The notes beneath the pieces were generated by a model. The model was not told the DNA's origin and made no database searches. It saw only the letters and a list, made by a program, of their open reading frames with translations. A stretch of 63,154 nt of DNA. It comes from Gemmatimonadota bacterium. Lineage in GTDB: Bacteria > Gemmatimonadota > Gemmatimonadetes > Gemmatimonadales > GWC2-71-9. The stretch lies in the NCBI GenBank assembly GCA_003223395.1, contig QHUZ01000046.1, positions 1-63,154 on the forward strand, given 5' to 3'. Numbering within the stretch: position 1 is the stretch's first letter; each line of letters begins with the position of its first letter. Below, in pieces: positions 4,183-38,835 of this stretch. The position numbers were made by a program, and so were the translations under genes.

Positions 4183-4677
4183 CTAGGGCGCTGACAGAAT
4201 CTCTTTGAGATGCGTCTCGAACGCCCGTGGGGTGAATGGCCCGATGATGAGGCCGCGCACCAACCCATCCGCCCCAATGAAGACCGATGTCGGGAGGCCA
4301 CGCAGTCTGTAGCGTTTCCGCACGTCCCCGTGCTCGTCCAGGAGGACCGGGAAAGGCATCTGGAACTCGGCGACGAATCTCCGTACGGCCCGCGTCGACG
4401 TCTCTTGATCCCTGCCGTTGACCGCCAAGATGATCAGTCCGGAGTCCTTGTGAGCGCGGTAGGCTGCGACCATCACCGGCATTTCGTCGCGGCAGGGCGG
4501 GCACCAGGACGCCCAGAAGTTGATCACGATCGGGTGCCCCTTGAAGTCGGAGAGGCTGACCGAGTTCCCGTCCAACGTTTTCAGGGTGAACGCGGGGGCG
4601 GTGTCGCCGACGGTCTGGGCAGCGAGCGGGGCGGACACGAAGAACATGGTGGCCGCGATAAGGCGATGAAGAGTCAC
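4183..4677 (-). CDS. TlpA-family thioredoxin-like protein, exported
   Basis: 164 residues from GTG 4677, chosen because a Shine-Dalgarno-like AGGCGG precedes it and it opens a signal peptide ending SAPLAAQ. The mature protein is a TlpA/ResA-type thioredoxin fold: [20 protein letters not shown], then the redox motif [11 protein letters not shown], and the cis-Pro region [10 protein letters not shown]. It should act in the periplasm as a thiol-disulfide reductant. It is the last gene of a minus-strand operon, 17 bp after the DsrE-like gene, which itself contains several cysteines and is a plausible partner (inference). Confidence 0.9.
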
Positions 4678-4694
4678 ATGACCGCCTGTCGTGA

Positions 4695-5360
4695 TCAACC
4701 CGCGAAGATGTAGGCGCAGCCTCGGGACGCCGCGCCGTTGCACGCTACCACGCCGGACGGTACGACCTGTATTCCGGCGAACACCGCGTCGATCCAGTCA
4801 CGATTCACGTCATCGTGCTTCAGGCCCATCTTCTGGGCGACCGTACCGCTGGAGATGGTGATGGCCAGATTGCACACGGCAACCTTCACGCCCCGAGCGA
4901 TCAACTTCTGGAGAGCAGCCTCCGGAACGGCGAAGGCGCCTGGCATGTGGTAGAACGGGTTGCGCACAGCGGGCGCGTGTGTGTCGGGATCCTCGATCTT
5001 GAACACCTCACCCAACTTGTACTTGGTCCATGCCGAGTCGGTCAACGCCAGAGGAATCGCGTTATGACGCAGCACGATCACAACGCCGAGGTCCTTTTCG
5101 GGGAGTCCGTACGCGGGCGCGCCGGTCGTCAAGAAGGCCCACGACCAGACGAGCCCGATACCCTGGTTGACCTCGGGCATATCGTAGAGCTGTTTGTGAC
5201 TGCCGGGAATGCTGTCGAGCCAGCGCGTGAACTCAGTGCTCTGGTCCTGCGACGCCGGGATGTGGCGCGCGAGGGGTACGCCGGCGCCGAAGCCTACCGC
5301 AGCGCTTGCCGCCAGACTCAAGAAATCGCGGCGGCCGGCATGAAATCCTGCGTCATCCAT
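4695..5360 (-). CDS. Tat-exported DsrE/DsrF-like protein
   Basis: 221 residues with a twin-arginine signal (RRDFLSLAASAAVGFGAG) near the N-terminus, so it is exported folded. The remainder resembles the DsrE-like alpha/beta fold: DLGVVIVLRHNAIPLALTD, then LIARGVKVAVCNLAI with the conserved position of the DsrE cysteine, and VVPSGVVACNGAASRGCAYI near the C-terminus. DsrE-family proteins handle sulfur or sulfane carriers in the cytoplasm; exported versions are poorly studied. The start follows an AGGAG. It lies 18 bp after a Ser/Thr kinase and 17 bp before a TlpA thioredoxin, indicating co-transcription. Any sulfur or redox role here is inference. Confidence 0.75.
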   Translation of the reverse strand: MDDAGFHAGRRDFLSLAASAAVGFGAGVPLARHIPASQDQSTEFTRWLDSIPGSHKQLYDMPEVNQGIGLVWSWAFLTTGAPAYGLPEKDLGVVIVLRHNAIPLALTDSAWTKYKLGEVFKIEDPDTHAPAVRNPFYHMPGAFAVPEAALQKLIARGVKVAVCNLAITISSGTVAQKMGLKHDDVNRDWIDAVFAGIQVVPSGVVACNGAASRGCAYIFAG

Positions 5361-20657: not shown

Positions 20658-21392
20658 GTGCTCGTTCAGGTCCGAGGGGCGATCCCCACGACGCCGTGGG
20701 AGCTGGTGCTCACGTCCAGCCGCGAAACGCAGTTCGTGCTGGCCGTGCTCGCCGTCTTTTCGCTGGTGTCGTGGTATCTGATCGTTCTCAAGTGGTGGCA
20801 ATTCCGCCGCATGCGACAGCTCGGCGACCGCTTCCTCGCCGAGGTGGAGAAGGCACCGCGGCTCGAAGAGGCGTATCATGCGGCGATGCGGCTGCCACCG
20901 TCCCCGTACAACCGGTTGCTGCGCGAGGCGGTCCACTTCTTTTCCGAGCTGAAACCGGGAAGCCTGAAAGGCACGGGTGGACCACCCGGCCCGCCCGGAG
21001 GAGCGGCAAGCGGCACGCTCACGACCACTCAGCTCGAAGCCCTGCGCATGGTGCTCGCCAAGGAAGTCGCGGCGGAGCGGGACACGGCCGCGCGATTCAT
21101 TCCATGGCTCGCGACCTTCGGCTCGGTAAGCCCGCTCCTCGGCCTGCTCGGGACGGTGCTTGGCGTGATGGACGCCTTCATCGGAATCGCGGTCGGCGGG
21201 TCGGGAAACATCACCGCCGTGGCGCCCGGCGTCGCGGAAGCGCTGGTCACGACGGTCGGCGGCCTGGCGGTCGCCGTTCCGGCCGTCATGGCGTACAACC
21301 TCTTCGTCAATCGGCTGGGGCTGTTCGCCGGCGAGCTCGAGGGCTTTGCCCAGGAGATCGTCGGGACGCTCGCCCGGGAAGGACGGATCTAA
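20658..21392 (+). CDS. tolQ: TolQ/ExbB-type proton channel subunit
   Basis: 244 residues with three membrane segments in the TolQ layout: an N-terminal helix (FVLAVLAVFSLVSWYLIVL), a cytoplasmic loop with a Gly/Pro-rich insert (GTGGPPGPPGGAASG), then two helices (LATFGSVSPLLGLLGTVLGV and TTVGGLAVAVPAVMAYNLFV). The GxxxPLLGLLGTVxGM-like motif is the family signature. With TolR it forms the proton-driven motor that energises the Tol-Pal system during outer-membrane constriction. The order of genes that follow (tolR, TonB/TolA-like, tolB, pal, cpoB) favours TolQ over ExbB or MotA. GTG start. Confidence 0.9.
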   Translation: MLVQVRGAIPTTPWELVLTSSRETQFVLAVLAVFSLVSWYLIVLKWWQFRRMRQLGDRFLAEVEKAPRLEEAYHAAMRLPPSPYNRLLREAVHFFSELKPGSLKGTGGPPGPPGGAASGTLTTTQLEALRMVLAKEVAAERDTAARFIPWLATFGSVSPLLGLLGTVLGVMDAFIGIAVGGSGNITAVAPGVAEALVTTVGGLAVAVPAVMAYNLFVNRLGLFAGELEGFAQEIVGTLAREGRI

Positions 21393-21832
21393 TGGCAGGA
21401 CTGCTCGGGAGCGGCGGGGGTGGCCTGCGCGGCCACGGCGAGCTGCCGCTCAACGCCGACATCAACGTGACGTCGCTCGTGGACGTCGCGTTCGTGCTGC
21501 TCATCATTTTCATGATCACCGCGCCGATCATGCAGGGGGGTGTCGATGTCCGTCTGCCGCGGGCCCAGGTGCGCGCCATCGAGCCAAAGCAGGGACTCGT
21601 CGTGACGATCGACATGGAGGGCAAGATCTATCTCGATCAGGCGGGACTCTCCTACGACGATTTCCAGGCCACGTTTCCGGCCTTTGTGCGAACGAAACGG
21701 CCCACCGGGGTGTATCTGCGGGCCGATGGTCGAGTCGCCTATGCCCGCGTGGTGCAGGTGCTGGCGGTGATTCGCAGTGCGGGCGTGCAGGACGTGGGAC
21801 TCGTAGCCGAACCGGAGACGATCAATCGATGA
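21392..21832 (+). CDS. tolR: TolR/ExbD-type motor subunit
   Basis: 146 residues, start codon overlapping the tolQ stop by one base (TAATG). After a Gly-rich cytoplasmic leader (LLGSGGGGLRGHGELPLNAD) comes INVTSLVDVAFVLLIIFMIT, the single helix with the conserved proton-relaying Asp. The periplasmic domain (VDVRLPRAQ ... VYLRADGRVAYARVVQVLAV) matches ExbD/TolR. The longer in-frame reading from 20696 is a shadow of tolQ. It should work only as a complex with TolQ. Confidence 0.92.
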   Translation: MAGLLGSGGGGLRGHGELPLNADINVTSLVDVAFVLLIIFMITAPIMQGGVDVRLPRAQVRAIEPKQGLVVTIDMEGKIYLDQAGLSYDDFQATFPAFVRTKRPTGVYLRADGRVAYARVVQVLAVIRSAGVQDVGLVAEPETINR

Positions 21833-22512
21833 GAGGACGCGGCCGCGCTCCGACCCCCGTAGGTATGGCGGTGACGGGAACCGTGTTCGTTCACGGGCTC
21901 GTGGTCGTGTTGCTGTTCGGCACGCCCAGCGGACGAACGCGGCTTCCGCCGACGTATCGCGTCCGCTTGATTGCGGCCCCCGCCGCCGACATGGAGTCCC
22001 GCAAGGCGCCCGAGGCATTCGAGCGTCCCGCCGAGGAGAAACCGGCGCCGATTCCGGCCGCCAAGCGTCCGCAGAGTACCGTCTCGCGCGCGACGCCGCC
22101 GCCGACGCAGGACCAGACTCGACGCGAAGCAGCCCCGCGAACCACCTCGTCGACCACGCCACTGCCGGGCGAGAAGCCGTCAACGGGCAACGACGTCGCG
22201 ACCGTGAGCACCGAGGGCATTGCATTCCCGTACCCTCAGTACCTCAGCAACATCGTGTCGCAGGTCCTCAGGCTTTGGCAGCGTCCCGAACAGAGCACGC
22301 CGCTCGAGGCAGAGTTGTCGTTTCTCGTGCATCGCGACGGCTCGGTGACCGATCTGTCGTTCATCCACCGCTCGAACAACTTCCAATTCGATCTCGAGGC
22401 GCAGGGAGCGATCGAGGCAGCCGCGAGCCGCCGCGCGTTTGGCCCGCTGCCCGATGGCTGGACGCCCGATGTGTTGTTCGTCCGATTCTATTTTTCGGGG
22501 CAGAGACAGTGA
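21829..22512 (+). CDS. TonB/TolA-like energy-transducing protein
   Basis: 227 residues, ATGA overlap with tolR. One N-terminal membrane anchor (MAVTGTVFVHGLVVVLLFG), a long Pro/Lys/Ala/Thr-rich spacer (about 50-125) suited to spanning the periplasm, and a C-terminal TonB-type domain (PYPQYLSNIVSQVLRLWQRP, ELSFLVHRDGSVTDLSFIHR). In this position it is the functional counterpart of TolA, carrying force from TolQR to TolB-Pal, although its C-terminal domain looks more like TonB. It is shorter than enterobacterial TolA, which has a long helical domain II. Confidence 0.85.
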   Translation: MRGRGRAPTPVGMAVTGTVFVHGLVVVLLFGTPSGRTRLPPTYRVRLIAAPAADMESRKAPEAFERPAEEKPAPIPAAKRPQSTVSRATPPPTQDQTRREAAPRTTSSTTPLPGEKPSTGNDVATVSTEGIAFPYPQYLSNIVSQVLRLWQRPEQSTPLEAELSFLVHRDGSVTDLSFIHRSNNFQFDLEAQGAIEAAASRRAFGPLPDGWTPDVLFVRFYFSGQRQ

Positions 22513-23921
22513 AACGAGAGAATGTTGGAATGATGGAATGTGTTATGGCGGTGGCAGTTCTTTCCATCGTTCCATCGTTCCATCTTTCCGCCCAGGACAC
22601 CAGCGCGATCGACCGCGGCGTGCGTATCGGCATCATTTATCGGCCCGGTGTGCGGCCGGGACTCGTGATGTTGCCCCGCACCGGCGTGGGTCTCGATTCC
22701 GTGCGTGCGATCATCGCCCGCGATCTCGATTACAGCGATCGTTTCGAAGTGATCACGCTTCCAGGCGGCGACTCGATTCGTCTTGCGACGTCGTCGTCCA
22801 CACCCACGCGCGGCACCGGCACGCGCCGATCCGGAACTGGCACTGCCGCAACGGGCGGCGCGCAGGCCGGAACACTCAATTATCCGCTCTATCAGGCGCT
22901 CGGCGCCGATTTCGCACTCGACATCACCGCGGCGGGCGACACGACTGTGGCGACGCTGCACGACGTCGCCGCTGCCGGCATTCGCCGCGCCGTCCGCGTC
23001 AAATTGCCGCGGCCGGGCGATCCCGATTTTCGCCAGGCGGTGCATCGGCTCGCCGATCAGACACTCCTGGCTGCGCTGGGGACCGCGGGCATCGCGGCGA
23101 CGCGGATCCTGTTCGTCAAAGACGGCAAGGTGTATCAGATCGATCAAGACGGAGCTGAGCAGAAGCTCGTGTCGTCGAGCGACCGCCAGGCGATGTCGCC
23201 GGCGTGGGCGTCGGACGGGCGGCGTTTTGCGTACATGGAGTTTCAAGCTGGGAAGGGCTGGCTGTATCTCCAGGAGATGGGCAGCGGGAAGCGCACCGCG
23301 GTGTCGACCACCGGAAGCGCTCTCGACTTCACGCCGGCGTTTTCGCCCGATGGCCAAACCCTCGCGTTCAGCCGCGCGACGGAGGAAGGGACCGATCTCT
23401 ACACGATTAACGTCAAGAGCAACTGTTGCTTACGCCGCTTGACCGTGGGGCGCTTTTCAGACAACTTGTCCCCGACGTTCAGCCCTGACGGGCAGCGCAT
23501 CGCATTCGTCTCGACGCGCCCGGGTCTGCCGCAGATCTATGTGATGGCGGCGGACGGAACGGACCAGCAGTTGTTCGCACCATTCGACTACGGTGTGACC
23601 GGCTCGTCTAACGCGCCGGAATGGTCGCCCGACGGGCAATCGGTGGCATTTCACCGGGACGTGGCGGGCACACTGCAGGTGTTCGTGCTCGACGTGCGGA
23701 CACGCACGGTCCGGCAGCTCACCTCGGTGGGGCGCAACGAGGATCCGACCTGGGCTCCCGACAGCCGTCATCTCGCCTTTGTTTCCGACCGGTCGGGCTA
23801 CCGCCAGTTGTGGATCATCGATCTCGACACCGGCCGAATTCGGCCACTGCTGCAGCAGAGTGGGGCGCGTTTGCCGGCTTGGTCTCCACGGCTTTCGGAG
23901 GCCCCATCTACCACCCCCTGA
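22509..23921 (+). CDS. tolB: Tol-Pal system beta-propeller protein TolB
   Basis: 470 residues from GTG 22509, the start that directly follows the previous stop and begins a signal peptide ending SFHLSAQD. The N-terminal TolB domain (VRIGIIYRPGVRPGLVML, DSVRAIIARDLDYSDRFEVI, LNYPLYQALGADFALDI) is followed by six-bladed propeller repeats with the pattern FSPDGQTLAFSR, FSPDGQRIAFVSTR, WSPDGQSVAFHRD, WAPDSRHLAFVSDR. It links the inner-membrane motor to Pal. The first codons are built from a small inverted repeat (22520-22589), listed separately. A reading from 22275 would lie inside the previous gene. Confidence 0.93.
   Translation: MKRENVGMMECVMAVAVLSIVPSFHLSAQDTSAIDRGVRIGIIYRPGVRPGLVMLPRTGVGLDSVRAIIARDLDYSDRFEVITLPGGDSIRLATSSSTPTRGTGTRRSGTGTAATGGAQAGTLNYPLYQALGADFALDITAAGDTTVATLHDVAAAGIRRAVRVKLPRPGDPDFRQAVHRLADQTLLAALGTAGIAATRILFVKDGKVYQIDQDGAEQKLVSSSDRQAMSPAWASDGRRFAYMEFQAGKGWLYLQEMGSGKRTAVSTTGSALDFTPAFSPDGQTLAFSRATEEGTDLYTINVKSNCCLRRLTVGRFSDNLSPTFSPDGQRIAFVSTRPGLPQIYVMAADGTDQQLFAPFDYGVTGSSNAPEWSPDGQSVAFHRDVAGTLQVFVLDVRTRTVRQLTSVGRNEDPTWAPDSRHLAFVSDRSGYRQLWIIDLDTGRIRPLLQQSGARLPAWSPRLSEAPSTTP
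22520..22589 (+). repeat. Imperfect inverted repeat (hairpin) in the tolB signal-peptide region
   Basis: The left arm contains GGAATGATGGAATG and the right arm CGTTCCATCGTTCC within a TTCCATCG-type tandem array. As RNA they pair over 14 bp with two G-U wobbles and a loop of about 25 nt, 15-80 nt downstream of the tolB start. The right array encodes the PSFHLSAQ end of the signal peptide. Confidence 0.75.
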
Positions 23922-23934
23922 TCGGAGAGACAGG

Positions 23935-24552
23935 ATGAAATCGGTAACGTTGCTCCTCGCGCTGGGCTTGGGCGCCGCCGTCCTGACCGGCTCGTCGTGT
24001 GGCGGCAATCCGCCCCCGCAGAATACGACGCCGGCGATCGACACCGCGGCCGAGAACGCGCGGATACGCGATTCCATCGCCGCGGCAGAGGCCGAACGGG
24101 CCCGTCAGGCGCAGGCGGAGGCGGAGCGCATCGCGGCGCAGCGCCGGTCGGATTCTCTCGCCGCACTCACGCGCGCGGGCGAAGAGGTCCGGACCACACT
24201 CGCCGCGATGATTCACTTCGACCTCGACAAGTCGAACATCCGCGGCGACGACATGGGTGCGCTCGATCAGAAGGTCGCGATTCTGCAGGCCAATCCCGAT
24301 CTGCGGATCCGGATCGGCGGGCACTGTGACGAGCGCGGCTCGGACGAGTACAACCTCGCCCTGGGCAATCGCCGCGCGCAATCTGCGAAGCAGTATCTCG
24401 TGAGCCACGGCATCGATGCGAGCCGCATCGAGACGCAGTCGTGGGGCGAGGAGCGGCCGCTCGTGGATGGCCACGACGAGAACGCGTGGTCGCAGAACCG
24501 GCGTGACGAGTTCGAGCCCATCAGCGGTGGCGACAATCTCCGCCGTCCGTAG
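23935..24552 (+). CDS. pal: Peptidoglycan-associated lipoprotein Pal
   Basis: 205 residues, ATG 23935 preceded by CAGGA. Lipoprotein signal with lipobox LTGSSC; then a charged coiled-coil-like segment (AAEAERARQAQAEAERIAAQ) longer than in classic Pal; then the OmpA-like domain with MIHFDLDKSNIRGDD, IGGHCDERGSDEYNLALGNR and ALGNRRAQSAKQYLVSHGI. This domain binds meso-diaminopimelate in peptidoglycan, anchoring the outer membrane. It is the outer-membrane end of the Tol system. The last part (SWGEERPLVDGHDENAWSQN) matches Pal closely. Confidence 0.94.
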   Translation: MKSVTLLLALGLGAAVLTGSSCGGNPPPQNTTPAIDTAAENARIRDSIAAAEAERARQAQAEAERIAAQRRSDSLAALTRAGEEVRTTLAAMIHFDLDKSNIRGDDMGALDQKVAILQANPDLRIRIGGHCDERGSDEYNLALGNRRAQSAKQYLVSHGIDASRIETQSWGEERPLVDGHDENAWSQNRRDEFEPISGGDNLRRP

Positions 24553-25312
24553 CACGCTCGTCCTGACGCTGGGGCTGGTCGCCGGCTGCGCCCTCAAAGG
24601 CGATGTCCGGAAGGTCCAGCTCCAGGTCGAGGCGTTACAAGCCGATCTCGCGAAGAGCGATGCGGCGCGGGCGGCGGAACGGGACACGATCCTGGCCGCC
24701 GTCCGGCTGCTGCAGCAGGCGCTCGCTACACAGCAGGCGTATCTGGTCCAGATGCGCGGCGACATCCGCACGGAGCTGCTGTCCGTACAACAGCAGCTCA
24801 CGAACGTCCAGGAGCTCGCGGGTGTGAGCCAGCAAAAGATCACCGAGCTGCGATCGCGCATCGAGTCGCGGGCGCAACAGCCCGACCCGGGCGCGGCCGG
24901 GGGAGCGCCGGTGGGTCCCTCCGGGAATCCCGCCGGCCCCGGTCCCGATCAGATGTATGACGTCTCACTGCAGCAGTACCGCCGTGGCAGTCTCGCGACC
25001 GCCCGGCTGGGCTTCCGGGAGTTGCTGCGGGTCTTCCCGGCGCATGAGCGTGCGCCTGACGCCCTCTTCTATATCGGCGAAAGCTTCGAAAAGAGTGCAC
25101 CCGATTCCGCGGCGGCGGTGTACGATCAAGTCGTGAAGACCTACCCGACCTCGCCGCGCGCTCCGTCGGCGCTGTACAAGCTGGGTCTGCTCGCCGAACA
25201 GCGGGGAGACAAGCCGACGGCGCGGACCTTCTACTCGCGGGTGATCGCGACGTATCCGCGCTCGCCCGAGGCCGATCTCGCGCGGCAAAATCAGCAGCGT
25301 CTCAAGCCGTAA
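24527..25312 (+). CDS. cpoB: Tol-Pal associated TPR protein CpoB (YbgF)
   Basis: 261 residues from GTG 24527, which overlaps the end of pal by 26 bp and opens a lipoprotein signal (LVLTLGLVAGC, Cys at the lipobox), unlike E. coli CpoB, which is soluble. An N-terminal coiled coil (VQLQVEALQADLAKSDAARA) is followed by a Gly/Pro-rich hinge and tandem TPRs (YDVSLQQYRRGSLATARLGF, PDALFYIGESFEKSAPDSAA, YKLGLLAEQRGD). CpoB coordinates peptidoglycan synthesis with outer-membrane constriction. No ATG is available in a sensible position. Confidence 0.88.
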   Translation: MATISAVRSTLVLTLGLVAGCALKGDVRKVQLQVEALQADLAKSDAARAAERDTILAAVRLLQQALATQQAYLVQMRGDIRTELLSVQQQLTNVQELAGVSQQKITELRSRIESRAQQPDPGAAGGAPVGPSGNPAGPGPDQMYDVSLQQYRRGSLATARLGFRELLRVFPAHERAPDALFYIGESFEKSAPDSAAAVYDQVVKTYPTSPRAPSALYKLGLLAEQRGDKPTARTFYSRVIATYPRSPEADLARQNQQRLKP

Positions 25313-25333: not shown

Positions 25334-28300
25334 ATGACGCCGCGCGGTGAGATGCCGTTTCTCGACCATCTCGAGGAGCTGCGTTGGCGCATCCTCTGGA
25401 GCCTCATCGCGATCCTCGTGGGCACCATCGTTGGCTGGTGGCTGCTCGATAAGGTCGACATCATCGACGTCCTCAAACGGCCCATCGCGCCGTACCTGCC
25501 CGGCGGGCGCCTCGTCTTCACCAGCCCCGCCGAGCCGTTCATGCTCACGCTGAAGGTGGCGTTCGCGCTGGGCTGCCTCGTGGCGTCGCCGGTCGTCATC
25601 TATCAGATCTGGGCGTTCCTGTCACCGGCGCTGTATGAGCGCGAGCGGCGCCTGATCGTGCCGGCGCTCGCCATCGGCGTCGTGCTGTTCCTCGCCGGGG
25701 CGATCGCGTGCTACGAGTGGTTGCTGCCGGCGGCGCTCAAGGTGTTGATCGGCTTCCAGCGCAGCGACCTGACGGCGATGATCACCATCGACCGCTACTT
25801 CGGCATGGCCGTCCCGTTCGTCGTCGGATGCGGGCTGGTCGCGGAGCTCCCGCTCGTCGTCACGATTCTCGCGTCTCTGGGCATCGTGACGCCGCAGTTC
25901 CTGGGGCGGCAGCGGCGCTACGCGATCGTGATCGCCGCGTTCCTCGCGGCGATTCTGACACCGCCCGATGCTGTCTCGATGATGCTGATGCTCGGGCCAT
26001 TGCTCCTCTTGTACGAGCTCAGCATCTGGTGCGCGTGGGTCGCGAGCCGCAGGCGTGCCCGCCGGATCGCGGCGGCGACCATGGTGGTGCTCGTGCTTGG
26101 CCTGGGCGGGGCATCGTTGCACGCGCAGAATCCTCCGCCACCGCCGCCGCGGCGCGACACGACGGCGGTCGTCAAGCCGCCCGGGGGGACCCAGGCGGAC
26201 AGCGGTCGCCGCGGCGTGGACAGCTCGACCGCCCGCAAGCTCGGACTGCCGACCGGCCCCACCCGTTCGTTCCCCCCGCCCGATGCCGTGATGGACTCGC
26301 TGCTCAAACTCGAAGGCTTCCGCATCACCCGCTACACATCCGACACCTTCGTCGTCGTGGGCGACAGCCAGACGATCTTCTTGCGGCGCGAGGCGTACGT
26401 CGAGCGCGACGGCACGAAGCTCCAGGCCGACTCGATTCGCTATCACGAAGCGAGCTGCCGGCTCAATGCCTCCGGGGAGCCGCAGCTGTTCGATCAGGGC
26501 ACCGTGCTCGTCGGGGAAGGGATGACCTACGACACCTGCTTGCGCCGCGGCACCGTGCGGGACGCGCTGACCGACTTTCAGCAGGGCGGGGTCACCTGGT
26601 ATATGCGAGGGCGAGGGCTTGCATCCGACTCCGGCTCGAAACGCGTGTACGCGGCGAAGGCAACGTTCACGTCGGATCCCCAGCCCGTCCCTGACTACCA
26701 CTTTGCCGCTGGAAAGGCGAAATGGCTCAACAGGAGCACGATGGTGGCGCGGCCGGCGGTGTTGTACGTCCGGGACGTCCCGGTCATGTGGCTGCCGTTC
26801 ATTTTCAATGATATTCGCGGGGGCCGGCGCAGCGGCATTCTGTTCCCGCATTTCGGTCTGAACGATATCGTGCGCCCGACGCGCCGGTACTCGCGGCACA
26901 TCTCCGACTTCGGCTACTACTTCGCCGTCAACGACTACGTCGATGTGCTCGTGTCCGGAGACTGGTTCGCCGACCGGTACGTGCAGTTTCACGGCCAGGC
27001 CCAGTATCACTGGATCGACCGCTTTGTCGACGGGAGTTTGACGTATTCGCGGATGTCCCAGATCGACCGGCCGGGCGTCAATTCGCGGATCGGCTGGAAT
27101 CACTCACAGCGCTTCGACTCGCGCACGTCGTTCAATGCGCACGTCGACTATTCGACGAACGGGACGCTCATCACCCGCAATTCGCTCAACCCCTGGGAAG
27201 TCACGGCCCGGATCGGCTCGAGTCTGAACTTCGACAAGCGGTTTGCGTGGGGCGCGCTGAATATCGGGGGTACGCGCTCCCAGGATCTCTCGACGGCCAA
27301 CGTCAGCCAGACCTTCCCGACCATCAGCCTGACGCCGTCCTCGGTGAACATCACGCCGTGGATGACCTGGTCACCGGGATTCAGCTTCACGAACGATCAG
27401 CAATTCCACGTCGCGAGCGGCACGCTCCTGGTTCCCGGCGACAGCACGGTGCCCGACACCCTGCGGCTCTTCAACGACAATCGCAACACCAACGTGTCCA
27501 TCAGCACGCCGCTCCGCATCGGCCGCTGGAATTGGGGGAACAGTGTCACCGTGACCGATGTCCGGGTCCATGGGCGCCAGGAATTCGCGCTCCCAGACAG
27601 CACCGGCGGGGTCCGACGGGTCCTCTTCGGCGAGACGTTCGAAACGCGCGTCGATTGGAACACGAGCATCAACCTGCCATCGTTTTTCTCCGGTACCTGG
27701 AAGCTGCAGCCGAGCGTGGGGATCTTGAACACGACGAGCGGCGGCCCCTTCATGATCCGCAATCAGTTCACCGGCGGCCGGTATGTGCGGCAGGGGAAGC
27801 GGCCGGCCTTCAGCATGAGCCTGTCGCCGACCTTCTTCGGCTTCTTTCCAGGTTTCGGTCCGCTGTCGCGCATCCGGCATTCCATCTCGCCACAGATCAG
27901 CTATCAATACGCGCCCGGAGTCCAGGTCCCAGAGGAGTTTGCGCATGCGATCGATCCCACGGGTCGGGCGTTGAACTCCCGCACCGACCCGCAGCAGACC
28001 ATCAGCATCGGGTTGTCGCAGACCTTCGAAGCCAAGCTGAAGCCGCCGGCCGGTGACACCGCGAGCGAAAAGGAACCGCGCAAAATCAAGCTGCTGAGCA
28101 TCAGCACGAGCGCGATCGGCTACAACTTCGAGCAAGCCAAGCAACCACACCACACCGGGTGGCAGAACCCCTCGCTCCAGAACACGTTCCTGTCGGACCT
28201 GCTCCCGAGCTTTCAGCTGTCGATTTCCCACGACCTGTGGAAAGGCCAGGTCGGCACCGATTCGGCGAAGTTCTCACCGTTCCTGCAGAGCATCTCCGCA

Positions 28301-28843
28301 TCCTTCACCGTGACACCGGCGACGCTCCAGGGGTTGGGCCGATTGTTCGGGCTGCGCTCGCACCCCGTCGCCGCGCCAACGCCAGACACGACCGCGACAC
28401 AGTGCGCGGGTGCGTCCACTGACTGCCGTCGCTACCAGGGAAGCTCGGGCATACCATACGGGCCGCGCGTACCAGGGATGGGAAGCCGCGGGGGCTACGG
28501 CGGAGGCAGGGGCTTTACGCTCGGCATTTCGTTGTCGAGCACGCGGAGCCGGAGCGACACGACTCCGCAACAGCGCCATGCCCCGGGACGGCAGACGACC
28601 AATCTGAATCTGGCGTTCAGCCCGACCCGCAACTGGACGGCGAACTGGAGCACGTCGTACGATATGGGAACGCGGCAGTTCTCCTACCACTCGTTGACGT
28701 TCCAACGTGATCTGCGGCGGTGGCGTGCGAGCTTCAGCTTCAACAAGACGGCGGCCGGTAACTTTTCTTTCAGCTTCAACATTACGCTCACCGATCAGCC
28801 GGACATCAAGTTCGACTACGATCAGACCACCTATGTGCGGTAG
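25334..28843 (+). CDS. TatC fused to an LptD-like outer-membrane protein
   Basis: One uninterrupted 1169-residue frame. Residues 1-245 are a full TatC: FLDHLEELRWRILWSLIAIL, PAEPFMLTLKVAFALG, VIYQIWAFLSPALYERERR and six membrane segments ending WCAWVASRRRARR. Directly after comes MVVLVLGLGGASLHAQ (from 250; in-frame ATG at 26081), which looks like a signal peptide, then an OstA-like region (TIFLRREAYVERDGTKLQAD, QLFDQGTVLVGEGMTYDT) and a large beta-rich part with VPVMWLPFIFNDIRGGRRSG and QYHWIDRFVDGSLTYSR, typical of LptD-type LPS assembly proteins, ending KFDYDQTTYVR. TatC exports folded proteins; LptD inserts LPS into the outer membrane. Either two genes translated from 25334 and 26081, or a polyprotein cleaved by signal peptidase. 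Domain calls are firm; the mode of expression is not. Confidence 0.85.
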   Translation: MTPRGEMPFLDHLEELRWRILWSLIAILVGTIVGWWLLDKVDIIDVLKRPIAPYLPGGRLVFTSPAEPFMLTLKVAFALGCLVASPVVIYQIWAFLSPALYERERRLIVPALAIGVVLFLAGAIACYEWLLPAALKVLIGFQRSDLTAMITIDRYFGMAVPFVVGCGLVAELPLVVTILASLGIVTPQFLGRQRRYAIVIAAFLAAILTPPDAVSMMLMLGPLLLLYELSIWCAWVASRRRARRIAAATMVVLVLGLGGASLHAQNPPPPPPRRDTTAVVKPPGGTQADSGRRGVDSSTARKLGLPTGPTRSFPPPDAVMDSLLKLEGFRITRYTSDTFVVVGDSQTIFLRREAYVERDGTKLQADSIRYHEASCRLNASGEPQLFDQGTVLVGEGMTYDTCLRRGTVRDALTDFQQGGVTWYMRGRGLASDSGSKRVYAAKATFTSDPQPVPDYHFAAGKAKWLNRSTMVARPAVLYVRDVPVMWLPFIFNDIRGGRRSGILFPHFGLNDIVRPTRRYSRHISDFGYYFAVNDYVDVLVSGDWFADRYVQFHGQAQYHWIDRFVDGSLTYSRMSQIDRPGVNSRIGWNHSQRFDSRTSFNAHVDYSTNGTLITRNSLNPWEVTARIGSSLNFDKRFAWGALNIGGTRSQDLSTANVSQTFPTISLTPSSVNITPWMTWSPGFSFTNDQQFHVASGTLLVPGDSTVPDTLRLFNDNRNTNVSISTPLRIGRWNWGNSVTVTDVRVHGRQEFALPDSTGGVRRVLFGETFETRVDWNTSINLPSFFSGTWKLQPSVGILNTTSGGPFMIRNQFTGGRYVRQGKRPAFSMSLSPTFFGFFPGFGPLSRIRHSISPQISYQYAPGVQVPEEFAHAIDPTGRALNSRTDPQQTISIGLSQTFEAKLKPPAGDTASEKEPRKIKLLSISTSAIGYNFEQAKQPHHTGWQNPSLQNTFLSDLLPSFQLSISHDLWKGQVGTDSAKFSPFLQSISASFTVTPATLQGLGRLFGLRSHPVAAPTPDTTATQCAGASTDCRRYQGSSGIPYGPRVPGMGSRGGYGGGRGFTLGISLSSTRSRSDTTPQQRHAPGRQTTNLNLAFSPTRNWTANWSTSYDMGTRQFSYHSLTFQRDLRRWRASFSFNKTAAGNFSFSFNITLTDQPDIKFDYDQTTYVR

Positions 28844-30181: not shown

Positions 30182-30196
30182 TTAGCTTTGTTTCCC

Positions 30197-31660
30197 ATGG
30201 CGAAGCTCCCCTCCGTCACGTTGGATGGTCATTCGCTCTCCATCGCCGATGTCGTCGCGGTCGCACGGCAGCACGCTGCTGTGGCGCTCGATACCAAGGC
30301 CCTCGCGGCCGTGGCACAATCCCGGAAAGCGGTCGAAGCGGCGGTCGCGCGCGGCGCGACGATTTACGGTGTCAACACGGGGTTCGGCAAGCTCGCGCAC
30401 GTTCGCATCCCACCCGAGCAAGCACGCCAGCTGCAGCTGAACCTCATCCGCAGCCATGCGTCAGGCGTCGGGGAGCCGCTCCCCGCCGCTGCCGTGCGCG
30501 CCATGATGCTGCTGCGGGCGAACGTCCTCGTGCGCGGGACGAGCGGGGTGCGTCCCGTCCTTCCCGAGCTGCTGGTGGACATGTTGAACCGCAAACTCCA
30601 TCCGACCGTGCCGTCGCAGGGCAGCGTCGGTGCTTCCGGCGACCTCGCGCCGCTGTCGCATCTCGCGCTGGCGATGATCGGCGAAGGCGACGTGAACGTG
30701 CCGAAGCCCATCACGCTCGAGGCCAAAGAGGGGCTGGCCTTCGTGAACGGGACGCAGGCGCAGACCGGCCTGGCGGCGCTGCTCGTGACCGACGCCTGGA
30801 CGCTGTGGCGGAGCGCGCACGCCGCCGCCGCGATGAGTCTCGAGGCGGTCCGTGGCTCGCCCGATCCGTTCGACGCCCGCATCCACGACGCTCGCCCGCA
30901 TCCCTGGCAGCAGCGCTCCGCCGCGCTGCTGCGCGACCTCCTCGCCGACAGTGAAATCCGGGAATCTCATCGCGAAAACGATCCACGCGTCCAGGACGCC
31001 TACTCGCTGCGCTGCACGCCGCAGGTGCTGGGTGCAGTCGGCGAGGGCCTCGCGTTCGCCGAACGGCTGGTGACGACCGAGCTCAATGCGGCGACGGATA
31101 ACCCGCTCGTCTTCGGCGACGACGTGTTGTCGGGCGGGAACTTCCACGGACAGCCGATCGCGCTCGCGCTCGACGTGATCGGGATCGCGTTGACCACACT
31201 GGCGGGACTCGCGGAGCGGCGCCTCGAGCGCGTGGTGAACCCCGACCTGTCGTCGGGACTGCCGGCGTTTCTCGCGCACGACCCCGGCCTCGAGTCGGGG
31301 TTCATGACCGCGCAGATCGCTGCCGCCGCGCTCGTGGGCGACTGCCGTGTGCTCGCGACTCCGGCGAGCGTGCAGTCGGTGCCCACGGAAGGAAACCAGG
31401 AAGACGTCGTCCCGATGGGGATGAGCGCCGCATGGAAAGCCGGACGCATCCTCGCGAACGCCGAGCGCATCGTTGCGATCGAGCTGCTCGCAGGCGCACA
31501 GGGACTCGAATACTTGAAGCCGCTCCGGCCGGCCAAAGCCGTCGCGCGGATCCACGCCGCGGTGCGTCAGTACGCGGCGGCGCTCACCGGCGATCGTCCC
31601 ATGACGAGGGACATTGAGCAGGTCGCGAGCGGTATTCGTGAGGGGAAATTCGCCTCATGA
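30197..31660 (+). CDS. hutH: Histidine ammonia-lyase
   Basis: 487 residues from ATG 30197 (an in-frame TTG 9 bp earlier is less likely). It converts L-histidine to urocanate. The MIO cofactor triad Ala-Ser-Gly is in [16 protein letters not shown]. Other signatures: [51 protein letters not shown] and [15 protein letters not shown]. First gene of hutH-hutU-hutI. Because a terminator sits directly upstream, its promoter must lie within or near that hairpin or in the lipoprotein gene; I did not find clear boxes. Confidence 0.96.
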
Positions 31661-33321
31661 GCGGCCCGCGGACGGTGCGCGCTCCGCGCGGCTCCACGAA
31701 GAGCTGCAAGGGCTGGGTGCAGGAAGCGGCGCTCCGCATGCTGATGAACAATCTCGATCCCGAGGTGGCGGAGCGTCCGCAAGATCTCGTGGTGTACGGC
31801 GGCACCGGTAAGGCCGTGCGCAACTGGGCGTCGTTCGACGCGATCTGCCGCACACTCCGCGTGCTGGCGGACGACGAGACGCTGCTGGTGCAATCGGGCA
31901 AACCGGTCGGCGTGTTCACCACCCACGCGGATGCGCCGCGCGTGCTCATCGCGAACGCCAATCTCGTCCCGCGGTACGCCACGTGGGACGTCTTCCGCGA
32001 TCTCGAGCGCCGCGGCCTGATCATGTATGGCCAGATGACCGCGGGGTCGTGGATCTACATCGGCACGCAGGGAATCCTTCAGGGAACCTACGAGACCTTC
32101 GCCGCGGTCGCCGCCCGACACTTCGGTGGATCGCTCAAGGGCCGCGTCGTCCTCACGGGTGGACTCGGGGGGATGGGCGGCGCGCAGCCTCTCGCCGCGA
32201 CCATGAATGAGGGGATCTGTCTCGCTGTGGAAATCGATCCCGCCCGCGTGCAGCGCCGGCTCGAGACGCGGTACCTCGATCGCGCGACCACATCCGTGGA
32301 CCAGGCGCTCGCCTGGTGCGAGGACGCGAAACGGCGGGGCAGCGCCCTGTCCGTCGGGCTGGTGGGTAATTGCGCCGATGCACTGCCGGAGCTCGTGACG
32401 CGCGGCTTTGCTCCCGACGTCGTCACGGACCAGACGTCCGCGCACGACCCATTGAATGGCTACGTCCCGCGTGGGATGACACTCACGGACGCGGCGGACC
32501 TGCGGCGGACGTCGCCCGATGAGTATCTCACGCGCGCGCGCGCGAGTATCGCCACGCACGTGGGCGCCATGCTGGCATTCCAACAGCGCGGCGCCGTCAC
32601 ATTCGACTACGGCAACAACATCCGCACCGAAGCGCGGGATGCCGGGGTCACCGACGCGTTTGCGATCCCCGGTTTCGTGCCGGAATACATCCGGCCGCTG
32701 TTTTGCGAGGGGAAGGGCCCATTTCGCTGGGTCGCGTTGTCCGGCGAGACGAAAGATCTGCATCGCACCGATCAGCTCGTGCTGGAGCTGTTTCCCGACA
32801 ACGCGCATCTGAAACGCTGGATCACGCTCGCACAACAGCGCGTGGCATTCCAGGGACTTCCGGCGCGGATCTGCTGGCTGGGGCAGGGAGAGCGCGCGCG
32901 GTTCGGAGTTGCCTTGAACGAGCTGGTGCGACGCGGCGAGCTGGCGGCGCCGATCGTCATCGGTCGCGATCACCTCGACACCGGCTCGGTTGCGTCGCCG
33001 TTCCGAGAAACGGAAGCGATGCGTGACGGTTCCGACGCGATCGCCGACTGGGCCATTCTCAATGCGTTGCTCAATACCGCATCCGGCGCGTCGTGGGTCT
33101 CGTTTCATCATGGCGGCGGCGTCGGCATCGGCAACTCGTTGCATGCGGGGCAAGTCATCGTCGCCGACGGGACGGGCGCCGCGGGCAAGCGGCTCGAGCG
33201 CGTGCTCACCAACGATCCGGGAATTGGCGTCGCCCGTCACGCCGACGCAGGCTATCCCGAAGCGATCGATACGGCGCGCCGCCACAACATCCGGCTGCCG
33301 ATGGGCGAGGATCTCGACTGA
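31657..33321 (+). CDS. hutU: Urocanate hydratase (urocanase)
   Basis: 554 residues, ATGA overlap with hutH. Second step of histidine breakdown: urocanate to imidazolonepropionate, using tightly bound NAD. Typical blocks are [59 protein letters not shown] (nucleotide binding), [19 protein letters not shown] and [20 protein letters not shown]. Full-length and intact. Confidence 0.97.
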
Positions 33322-33326
33322 AGACA

Positions 33327-34586
33327 TTGCTCGTCGGGGCGCGCCAGGTCGTGACGTGTCGCGGGCCTGCGCGCGCCCGCCGTGGGCGCGAGATGGCGGA
33401 CGTCGAGGTGCTCGCCGACGCGGCGGTGCTGATCGACGGCGCCCGGATCGCGTGGGTGGGTCCGCGACGGGAGGCGCCCAAAGTAGAGGCGCAGCATGCT
33501 GCGCCTGTACGCGTCGTCGAAATCGACGGTGTGCTGTTCCCCGGGTTCATCGATTGCCACACCCACGGTGTCTTCGGCGCGCCCCGGCTCGACGATCAGG
33601 AGCGGCGCGCGCTGGGCGTCGACTATAAGGCCATCGCCGCGGCGGGGGGCGGGATTCTGCAATCGGTGCGCGACGTGCGCCGCCGCTCCGAAGCGGAGCT
33701 CGTCACACTCACCCGATCACGTCTCGAGACGCTGATCGCGCATGGCGCGACGACGATCGAAGTGAAATCCGGGTACGGCCTCGAGCTGGAGGCCGAATTG
33801 AAGCAACTCCGCGTGATCCGCCAGTTGTCTGAGCAGCTGCCGGTCACGCTGATCCCGACATTCCTCGGCGCGCACGAGGTCCCGCCGGAGTATCGCAACA
33901 AGCGCGCCGAGTACGTGCGACTCGTCTGTGAGGAAATGCTCCCGGCCGTTGCGCGCGAAAAGCTGGCGCAGTGTTGTGATGTCTTCTGCGAGCCGGGCGT
34001 CTTCACGGTGGCGGAGAGTCGTCAGATTCTCACAGCCGCGCGCTCGCACGGCTTTGCGGTGAAGCTGCACGCCGACGAGCTCGAGGGTTCCGGCGGCGCC
34101 GAGCTGGCGGCGGAGCTGGGGGCGGTGTCGGCCGATCATCTGGCCGCGATCTCCGAGCCGGGGATCGGTGCGCTCGCCGCCAGCCCGACGGTGGCCGTGC
34201 TGCTCCCGGCGACGATGCTCTTTCTCGGCAAGCGGTCCCAGGCGCCAGCCCGGCGGTTGATCGACGCGGGGGCAGCCGTCGCTCTGGCGACGGATTTCAA
34301 TCCGGGGACCTCGCCGACGGTGAGCCTGCCGCTCGTCATGTCATTGGGCGTCTCGCAACTTGGGCTACGTCACGCGGAAGTTGTGACGGCCGTGACGATC
34401 AATGCCGCCGCCGCACTCGGACTCGCCGCGGACCGTGGCCAGATCGCCGCCGGATGTGTCGCGGATCTCGTCGTCGTGGCCGCAGACGACTGGCGGGAGG
34501 TCGCATACTGGATGGGGAAAGAGGTCGTAAGCGCCGTCTGGACAGCAGGTTCGGCTTGTCCCACCAAGGGGGCCCCGATATCTTAG
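33327..34586 (+). CDS. hutI: Imidazolonepropionase
   Basis: 419 residues from TTG 33327; CTG 33318 has a better-spaced GAGG, and the first ATG (33393) would remove the conserved N-terminal strand, so the start is uncertain. It is a metal-dependent amidohydrolase: GFIDCHTHGVFGA (His-x-His), [20 protein letters not shown] and ALATDFNPGTSPTVSLPL. It hydrolyses imidazolonepropionate to N-formimino-glutamate. The final hut step (hutG or hutF) is not in the window. Confidence 0.93.
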   Translation: MLVGARQVVTCRGPARARRGREMADVEVLADAAVLIDGARIAWVGPRREAPKVEAQHAAPVRVVEIDGVLFPGFIDCHTHGVFGAPRLDDQERRALGVDYKAIAAAGGGILQSVRDVRRRSEAELVTLTRSRLETLIAHGATTIEVKSGYGLELEAELKQLRVIRQLSEQLPVTLIPTFLGAHEVPPEYRNKRAEYVRLVCEEMLPAVAREKLAQCCDVFCEPGVFTVAESRQILTAARSHGFAVKLHADELEGSGGAELAAELGAVSADHLAAISEPGIGALAASPTVAVLLPATMLFLGKRSQAPARRLIDAGAAVALATDFNPGTSPTVSLPLVMSLGVSQLGLRHAEVVTAVTINAAAALGLAADRGQIAAGCVADLVVVAADDWREVAYWMGKEVVSAVWTAGSACPTKGAPIS

Positions 34587-38379: not shown

Positions 38380-38601
38380 ATGCTCGGCAATCTCGGCTTC
38401 ACGGAAATCGCGATTCTGCTGCTGATCCTGGTGCTGTTCTTCGGCGCCAAGCGCATCCCGGAGATCGGCGCGTCGATCGGGAAGGGCATTAAGGAATTCA
38501 AGAAGGGTCTCAAGGACGTGTCGGCCGAGGAACCGCCGGCGTCCTCGGATTCCTCAATCCCCCCGGCCGGCGGCGGCAGCCCGAAGCGTCTGAATCAGTA
38601 G
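38380..38601 (+). CDS. tatA: Twin-arginine translocase subunit TatA
   Basis: 73 residues. Short N-terminal helix (GFTEIAILLLILVLFFGAKR), the FGAKRIPE hinge and an amphipathic helix (GASIGKGIKEFKKGLKD), followed by a flexible tail. TatA polymerises to form the pore for folded proteins with RR signals, one of which is the DsrE-like protein at 5.3 kb. The tatC partner is 13 kb upstream, fused to an LptD-like protein. Confidence 0.93.
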   Translation: MLGNLGFTEIAILLLILVLFFGAKRIPEIGASIGKGIKEFKKGLKDVSAEEPPASSDSSIPPAGGGSPKRLNQ

Positions 38602-38613
38602 CGGCACGGTCTC

Positions 38614-38835
38614 ATGCTGGGAAATCTGAGCGGCAGCGAAATCCTGATTCTGATGTTGATCGTCCTGCTCGTCTTCGGCGCGAATCGGCTGCCGGAAGCG
38701 GGCAAAGCGGTGGGGAAGGGACTGCGCGAGTTCAAACGCGCGCTCTCTGACGCGGAACACAGCATTCAGCAGCTGCCCCCCTCGCGGGAGGAAGAGCAGC
38801 CGCGCGATGCCAAACCGAAGCGTTTAGTCGAGTAG
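38614..38835 (+). CDS. Second TatA/TatB-like subunit
   Basis: 73 residues, a clear paralogue of the preceding gene, 12 bp downstream: LSGSEILILMLIVLLVFGAN, RLPEAGKAVGKGLREFKRAL and an acidic/basic tail ending PKRLVE like its neighbour. It could serve as TatB or as a second TatA; length and the FGAN variant of the FG motif do not decide. It ends 2 bp from the convergent ppiD stop. Confidence 0.88.
   Translation: MLGNLSGSEILILMLIVLLVFGANRLPEAGKAVGKGLREFKRALSDAEHSIQQLPPSREEEQPRDAKPKRLVE

Follow-up and report, generated by a model that had tools for sequence, protein, structure and literature searches.

Introduction

The cytochrome b/cytochrome c1 precursor FbcH of Bradyrhizobium japonicum carries an internal signal peptide, which is cut by signal peptidase. 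Cellular polyproteins are rare in bacteria. The tatC-lptD locus described here resembles FbcH in that a single chain would join a polytopic protein of the inner membrane to an exported one through an internal signal peptide; FbcH is a known example of signal peptidase separating a membrane protein from an exported partner. However, the products of FbcH are subunits of one inner-membrane complex, whereas TatC and LptD belong to two unrelated machines and LptD must continue to the outer membrane.

C-terminal fusions to TatC have also been made and tolerated, namely TatC-lysozyme (PDB 4htt) and TatC-dL5 (PMC11867995), but these are engineered constructs in which the join has no signal peptide. 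TatC spans the membrane with six helices in N-in/C-in topology, and domains fused to its C-terminus were tolerated in E. coli (PMC11867995); the docking site of TatA/TatB lies at TM5/TM6 (PMC5201420). Another point of comparison is the ‘Q-rule’, the occurrence of Gln directly after the signal peptidase I site that is known for Bacteroidetes substrates (PMC5837995). The Q-rule was reported as not typical of phyla related to Bacteroidetes, with Gemmatimonadetes not being named (PMC5837995). At the TatC-LptD seam, Gln likewise directly follows the predicted cut, but the host belongs to the Gemmatimonadota.

Among natural loci, close counterparts are the separate tatC and lptD genes of f2, the sister family of the family studied here (f1), and of f3. 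They have the same order and encode the same proteins, with an A↓Q signal peptide on nearly all LptDs, but their stop and start codons overlap or lie a few bases apart, and LptD is equipped with a separate start codon and, as a rule, a charged n-region that belongs to it. No description of a TatC-LptD fusion, its spread or its recurrence was found in the literature searched, from which most subscription journals were outside coverage.

Results

The fused gene lies in the window, by which we mean the whole stretch of 63,154 nucleotides that was analysed, and its parts are listed in Table 1. Re-examination of the ORF upheld the initial annotation, according to which a stop-free frame of 1169 codons runs from TatC through an outer-membrane protein. 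The tol-pal cluster upstream (TolQ/ExbB, TolR/ExbD, a TonB/TolA-like protein, a TolB-like propeller, Pal/OmpA and a CpoB-like TPR protein) ends 21 nt before tatC. Downstream of the fusion, a histidine-degradation cluster (HutH, HutU and HutI-like) occupies window positions 30188-34586.

Table 1. Features of the tatC-lptD locus, in window coordinates
Feature	Position	Strand	Basis or remark
tatC-lptD fused ORF	25334..28843	+	ATG start, 1169 aa, no internal stop
TatC domain	25364..25999	+	PF00902 match, residues 11-222
End of TatC TM6 (YELSIWCAWVA region)	26000..26044	+	
Arg-rich cytoplasmic tail of TatC, SRRRARRIAAAT, putatively doubling as signal peptide n-region	26045..26080	+	
SRRRARR	26045-26065	+	residues 238-244 of fused ORF
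In-frame ATG, codon 250, immediately 5' of hydrophobic stretch MVVLVLGLGGASLHA↓Q	26081	+	
Putative h/c-region of signal peptide, MVVLVLGLGGASLHA	26081..26125	+	
Predicted signal peptidase I site A264↓Q265	26123..26128	+	seam conservation; Q-rule of PMC5837995
Pro-rich linker, variable, predicted N-terminus of mature LptD	26129..26230	+	
LptD: N-terminal LptA-like beta domain and outer-membrane barrel	26231..28840	+	
tol-pal gene cluster, upstream, same strand as tatC	20658..25312	+	

Both halves could be assigned with confidence. In profile searches the N-terminal half matched PF00902 with E = 3.2e-65 and scored 201.5 bits against TIGR00945 (cut-off 132.7). In an alignment of 66 sequences, the TatC columns E15, R17, P50, F95 and E104 are invariant; the functional residues of TatC we take to be, in E. 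coli numbering, E15, R17, a Pro near 48, a Phe near 94 and a Glu near 103. The other half, which had been annotated as LptD-like, turned out to be a genuine LptD: an LptD_2 (PF19838) match begins at residue 471 (E = 2e-38), its profile matches the solved LptD chains 7omm (7e-10) and 8h1r, and an AF2 model (pLDDT 77.6) consists of an N-terminal beta domain and a large barrel, for which the first 36 Foldseek matches in the PDB are all LptD. No second tatC or lptD was found, with one PF00902 and one LptD_2 locus per genome searched, and in the fused genomes the fusion is the sole locus of either kind. The window's genome also has genes for a TatA-type protein, signal peptidase I and LpxC, the last being a marker of LPS biosynthesis that is present in G000 and in 19 of 20 relatives. 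Two tandem TatA-type genes of 73 aa each (PF02416 matches) lie at window positions 38380-38835, ~10 kb downstream of tatC-lptD.

Relatives were collected by whole-genome searches and by fetching the junctions. Within f1, the Gemmatimonadota family of MAGs to which the window belongs, 82 genomes had both parts on one contig and were evaluable. The expectation that the fusion would recur in related genomes was borne out: 76 of these 82 junctions, covering 32 of 35 genera, are in-frame and stop-free, and the same seam occurs in three f2 genomes (G054, G251 and G275), giving 79 fused loci overall. A conserved stop codon between the two parts, which would have spoken for separate genes, was looked for and is not present in f1. 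Some of the fused contigs are long, e.g. 853 kb (G027:C2) and 2.87 Mb (G124:C1), and those fused loci that have named records come from MAGs with the label Gemmatimonadetes or Gemmatimonadales. Among the f2 genomes sampled, tatC and lptD usually overlap at GTGA or TGATG, and in f3 the two genes are adjacent and separated by a stop, with a GTG 0-1 bases later. In another order of the same class, G303:C111:72320-75733 and G416:C60:19425-22196 give a one-frame tatC/lptD match with a single TGA inside; if this TGA sits between tatC and lptD, these loci are one change short of fusion.

The seam is arranged alike in all 79 fused loci: the YE end of TM6 leads into a tail rich in Arg, then come a few spacer residues and a hydrophobic stretch that closes with A/G/S/T↓Q. 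The hydrophobic stretch up to the site measures 12-24 residues (median 16), the residue before Gln is Ala in 72 loci, Gly in 4, Thr in 2 and Ser in 1, and the -3 residue is Leu, Ala or Val in 73/79. In the alignment of 66 rows, A264 and Q265 are conserved to 91% and 98%, with variable flanking columns. The TatC tail has a median net charge of +5, and its columns 239-241 hold Lys or Arg in 91-98% of the 66 sequences. Its charge, h-region and A/G/S/T↓Q give the seam the sequence features of a correctly oriented signal peptide that carries a type I site. The earlier proposal of a Sec signal peptide at the junction of SRRRARR and the hydrophobic stretch thus agrees with the sequence features of all 79 seams. 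A lipoprotein signal was ruled out because the +1 residue is not Cys. A Tat-type signal (S-R-R-x-F-L-K) was likewise rejected: the Arg cluster is conserved, the columns after it are rich in Ala and Arg, and there is no conserved Phe or Leu. An AF2 model of TatC with the seam is helical, and its h-region is modelled with low confidence (pLDDT about 50-66).

In four genera, pN/pS spanned 0.26-0.54 for the tail, 0.46-0.63 for the h/c-region and 0.36-0.75 for the linker, and the synonymous divergence (pS) at the seam was similar to that of the coding body. A pN/pS below 1 together with a body-like pS means that translation across the seam uses this frame and that no motif is being maintained at the nucleotide level. 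The linker at the LptD N-terminus has a median length of 34 residues (24-53) in fused genes versus 26-38 in split ones; it is not a special tether, since its length is similar in both. The same A↓Q is found in nearly all split LptDs of the phylum. Two other secreted proteins of the window also have A↓Q after an h-region, the TolB-like protein at 22533-23918 (...SFHLSAQ) and a minus-strand ORF at 4186-4797 (...PLAAQ); these few proteins hint at a Q-rule in Gemmatimonadota.

The history of the fusion was followed by parsimony on trees built from TatC and LptD, with the seam left out. Family f1 forms one clade (support 85-88), and parsimony gave seven state changes: one fusion at the f1 base, two in f2 and four losses in f1 (g21, g48, G011 and G119). 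The f2 fusions are thus two independent events in addition to the f1 fusion. The split rows within f1 are read as re-splits of the fused gene, about four times, because they are nested inside fused clades (e.g. G119 in g28), although the tree alone cannot tell gain from loss. The re-split f1 lineages have a new stop together with a signal peptide for LptD and, mostly, a clear LptD start. In split relatives generally, a start at or near the TatC stop is clear in all but G079, and in most the LptD n-region has its own Lys or Arg. In G079 (genus g48), the LptD frame has no obvious start. At its seam (G079:C35, L129), a GGGGGC repeat just before the signal peptide differs in length by one base, and nothing else interrupts the fused frame; the difference may be either a sequencing error or a slippage-prone switch. 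In G013, also of f1, tatC and lptD lie on different contigs. The TatC tail of this genome (L136, L135) is long and f2-like, and the fused tatC may have been replaced by a foreign copy. In the G275 fusion (L140, f2), a plausible GTG start and an Arg are kept just before the signal peptide; this could represent an early stage of fusion. By a rough estimate, about 18 stop gains would be expected on the tree without constraint, and stops at the seam are confined to lineages that split.

Discussion

The seam could in principle harbour an internal start, at ATG, GTG or TTG (26081 here), from which LptD would mainly be made as a separate product, with the read-through chain a minor one. The ATG at 26081 lies just before the h-region, overlapping stop/start pairs exist in split relatives, a plausible GTG with Arg is retained in G275, and a start codon followed by Lys or Arg before the h-region occurs in 30/79 fused loci, all of which would suit such initiation. 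However, when ATG, GTG and TTG codons between TM6 and the h-region were counted in the 79 fused loci, with each gene's codon usage as the expectation, 87 candidate starts were seen versus 84 ± 6 expected; 24 loci had none of the three codons versus 23.6 expected, and only 13 had an ATG. Shine-Dalgarno matches at seam starts were background-like, without an excess, in a comparison of low power given that they are also weak at the tatC starts of the same genomes. A signal peptide beginning at 26081 would moreover have an uncharged n-region. Internal initiation also leaves the absent TatC stop unexplained, since a stop placed ahead of a functional internal start should be neutral; the confinement of stops to split lineages fits an LptD that needs read-through from TatC. 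We consider internal initiation unlikely, and the ATG at 26081, which the initial annotation had offered as the simpler option, is neither conserved nor preceded by a clear Shine-Dalgarno sequence.

Alternatively, the chain might stay uncut, so that LptD would be tethered to TatC via the seventh helix and the Pro-rich linker and would span both membranes. The single open frame and the ~34 linker residues after the helix are compatible with this, but A264↓Q265 is nearly invariant while its neighbours drift, the linker is no longer than in split relatives, and the split and displaced genes show that a tether is dispensable, which makes an uncut chain very unlikely. We regard as more improbable still a programmed frameshift into a nearby stop of another frame, yielding TatC alone besides the fusion product. 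A +1-frame stop does lie within 15 codons in 17/79 loci, yet it is not conserved, the median distances in the two other frames are 77 and 133 codons, and the ordinary synonymous variation in the tail argues against a conserved slippery site. The suspicion of an assembly or sequencing artefact, i.e. a lost stop or an indel, may arise from all named fused members being MAGs and from the one-base difference in the G/C repeat at the seam of G079, a member of the same family. This reading is refuted by the recurrence of the same in-frame seam in 79 genomes, large contigs included, and is also contradicted by pN/pS below 1 across the seam; we give it a practically negligible chance.

With high probability, then, tatC-lptD is one gene for one primary polypeptide, in which the TatC tail serves as n-region and from which signal peptidase I would free LptD, leaving a seventh helix on TatC. 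The computed support for one chain comprises the conserved read-through frame, its single copy, the conserved seam features and protein-level selection on the seam, from which we infer single-chain translation, the insertion topology, cleavage and normal function of both products. Of the proposals in the initial annotation, the natural polyprotein is the one that fared best, with a conserved stop-free frame, a conserved seam and a cleavage predicted from sequence patterns. TatC would insert with six helices, N-in/C-in, and its Arg-rich tail would supply the n-region for a Sec signal peptide inside the chain. The hydrophobic stretch would then insert N-in/C-out, as signal peptides do, forming a seventh helix and starting the export of LptD. 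Signal peptidase I would cut after A264 and free an LptD with the new N-terminus Q265, which would reach the outer membrane in the usual way, through periplasmic chaperones and BAM. What had been the signal peptide would stay on TatC as its seventh, C-terminal helix, near the TatA/TatB site at TM5/TM6.

The origin of the one-chain gene can be pictured in similar terms. Overlapping stop and start codons would already tie lptD translation to tatC, and loss of the stop, plus frame adjustment where needed, would fuse the two genes. The fusion might be close to neutral, the cut restoring two products. Once the internal start had decayed, any new stop would eliminate LptD, except where a start arose again. 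Near-neutral fusion and start decay would thus account for long persistence and occasional re-splits without a functional link between Tat and LPS export. The suggestion of a functional coupling between Tat and LPS assembly through the fusion gained no support, given that the gene was re-split about four times, that the G013 genes are on different contigs and that the seam looks built for separation. It is quite unlikely, in our estimate, that the Tat receptor has taken over the old LptD signal peptide as a functional component beside TM5/TM6 and that the supply of Tat receptor and LPS inserter is locked at 1:1.

Two envelope-building machines thus probably depend on the cell cutting one chain. 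The arrangement is conserved family-wide, in 76 genomes of 32 genera, and the only copies that the cell has of both machines would hang on one cut. The loci form a natural series: separate genes that overlap, in-frame neighbours interrupted by one stop, fusions of three origins and genes that were split again. This series makes gene fusion and fission, the use of a membrane-protein tail as an n-region and the C-terminal extension of TatC testable.
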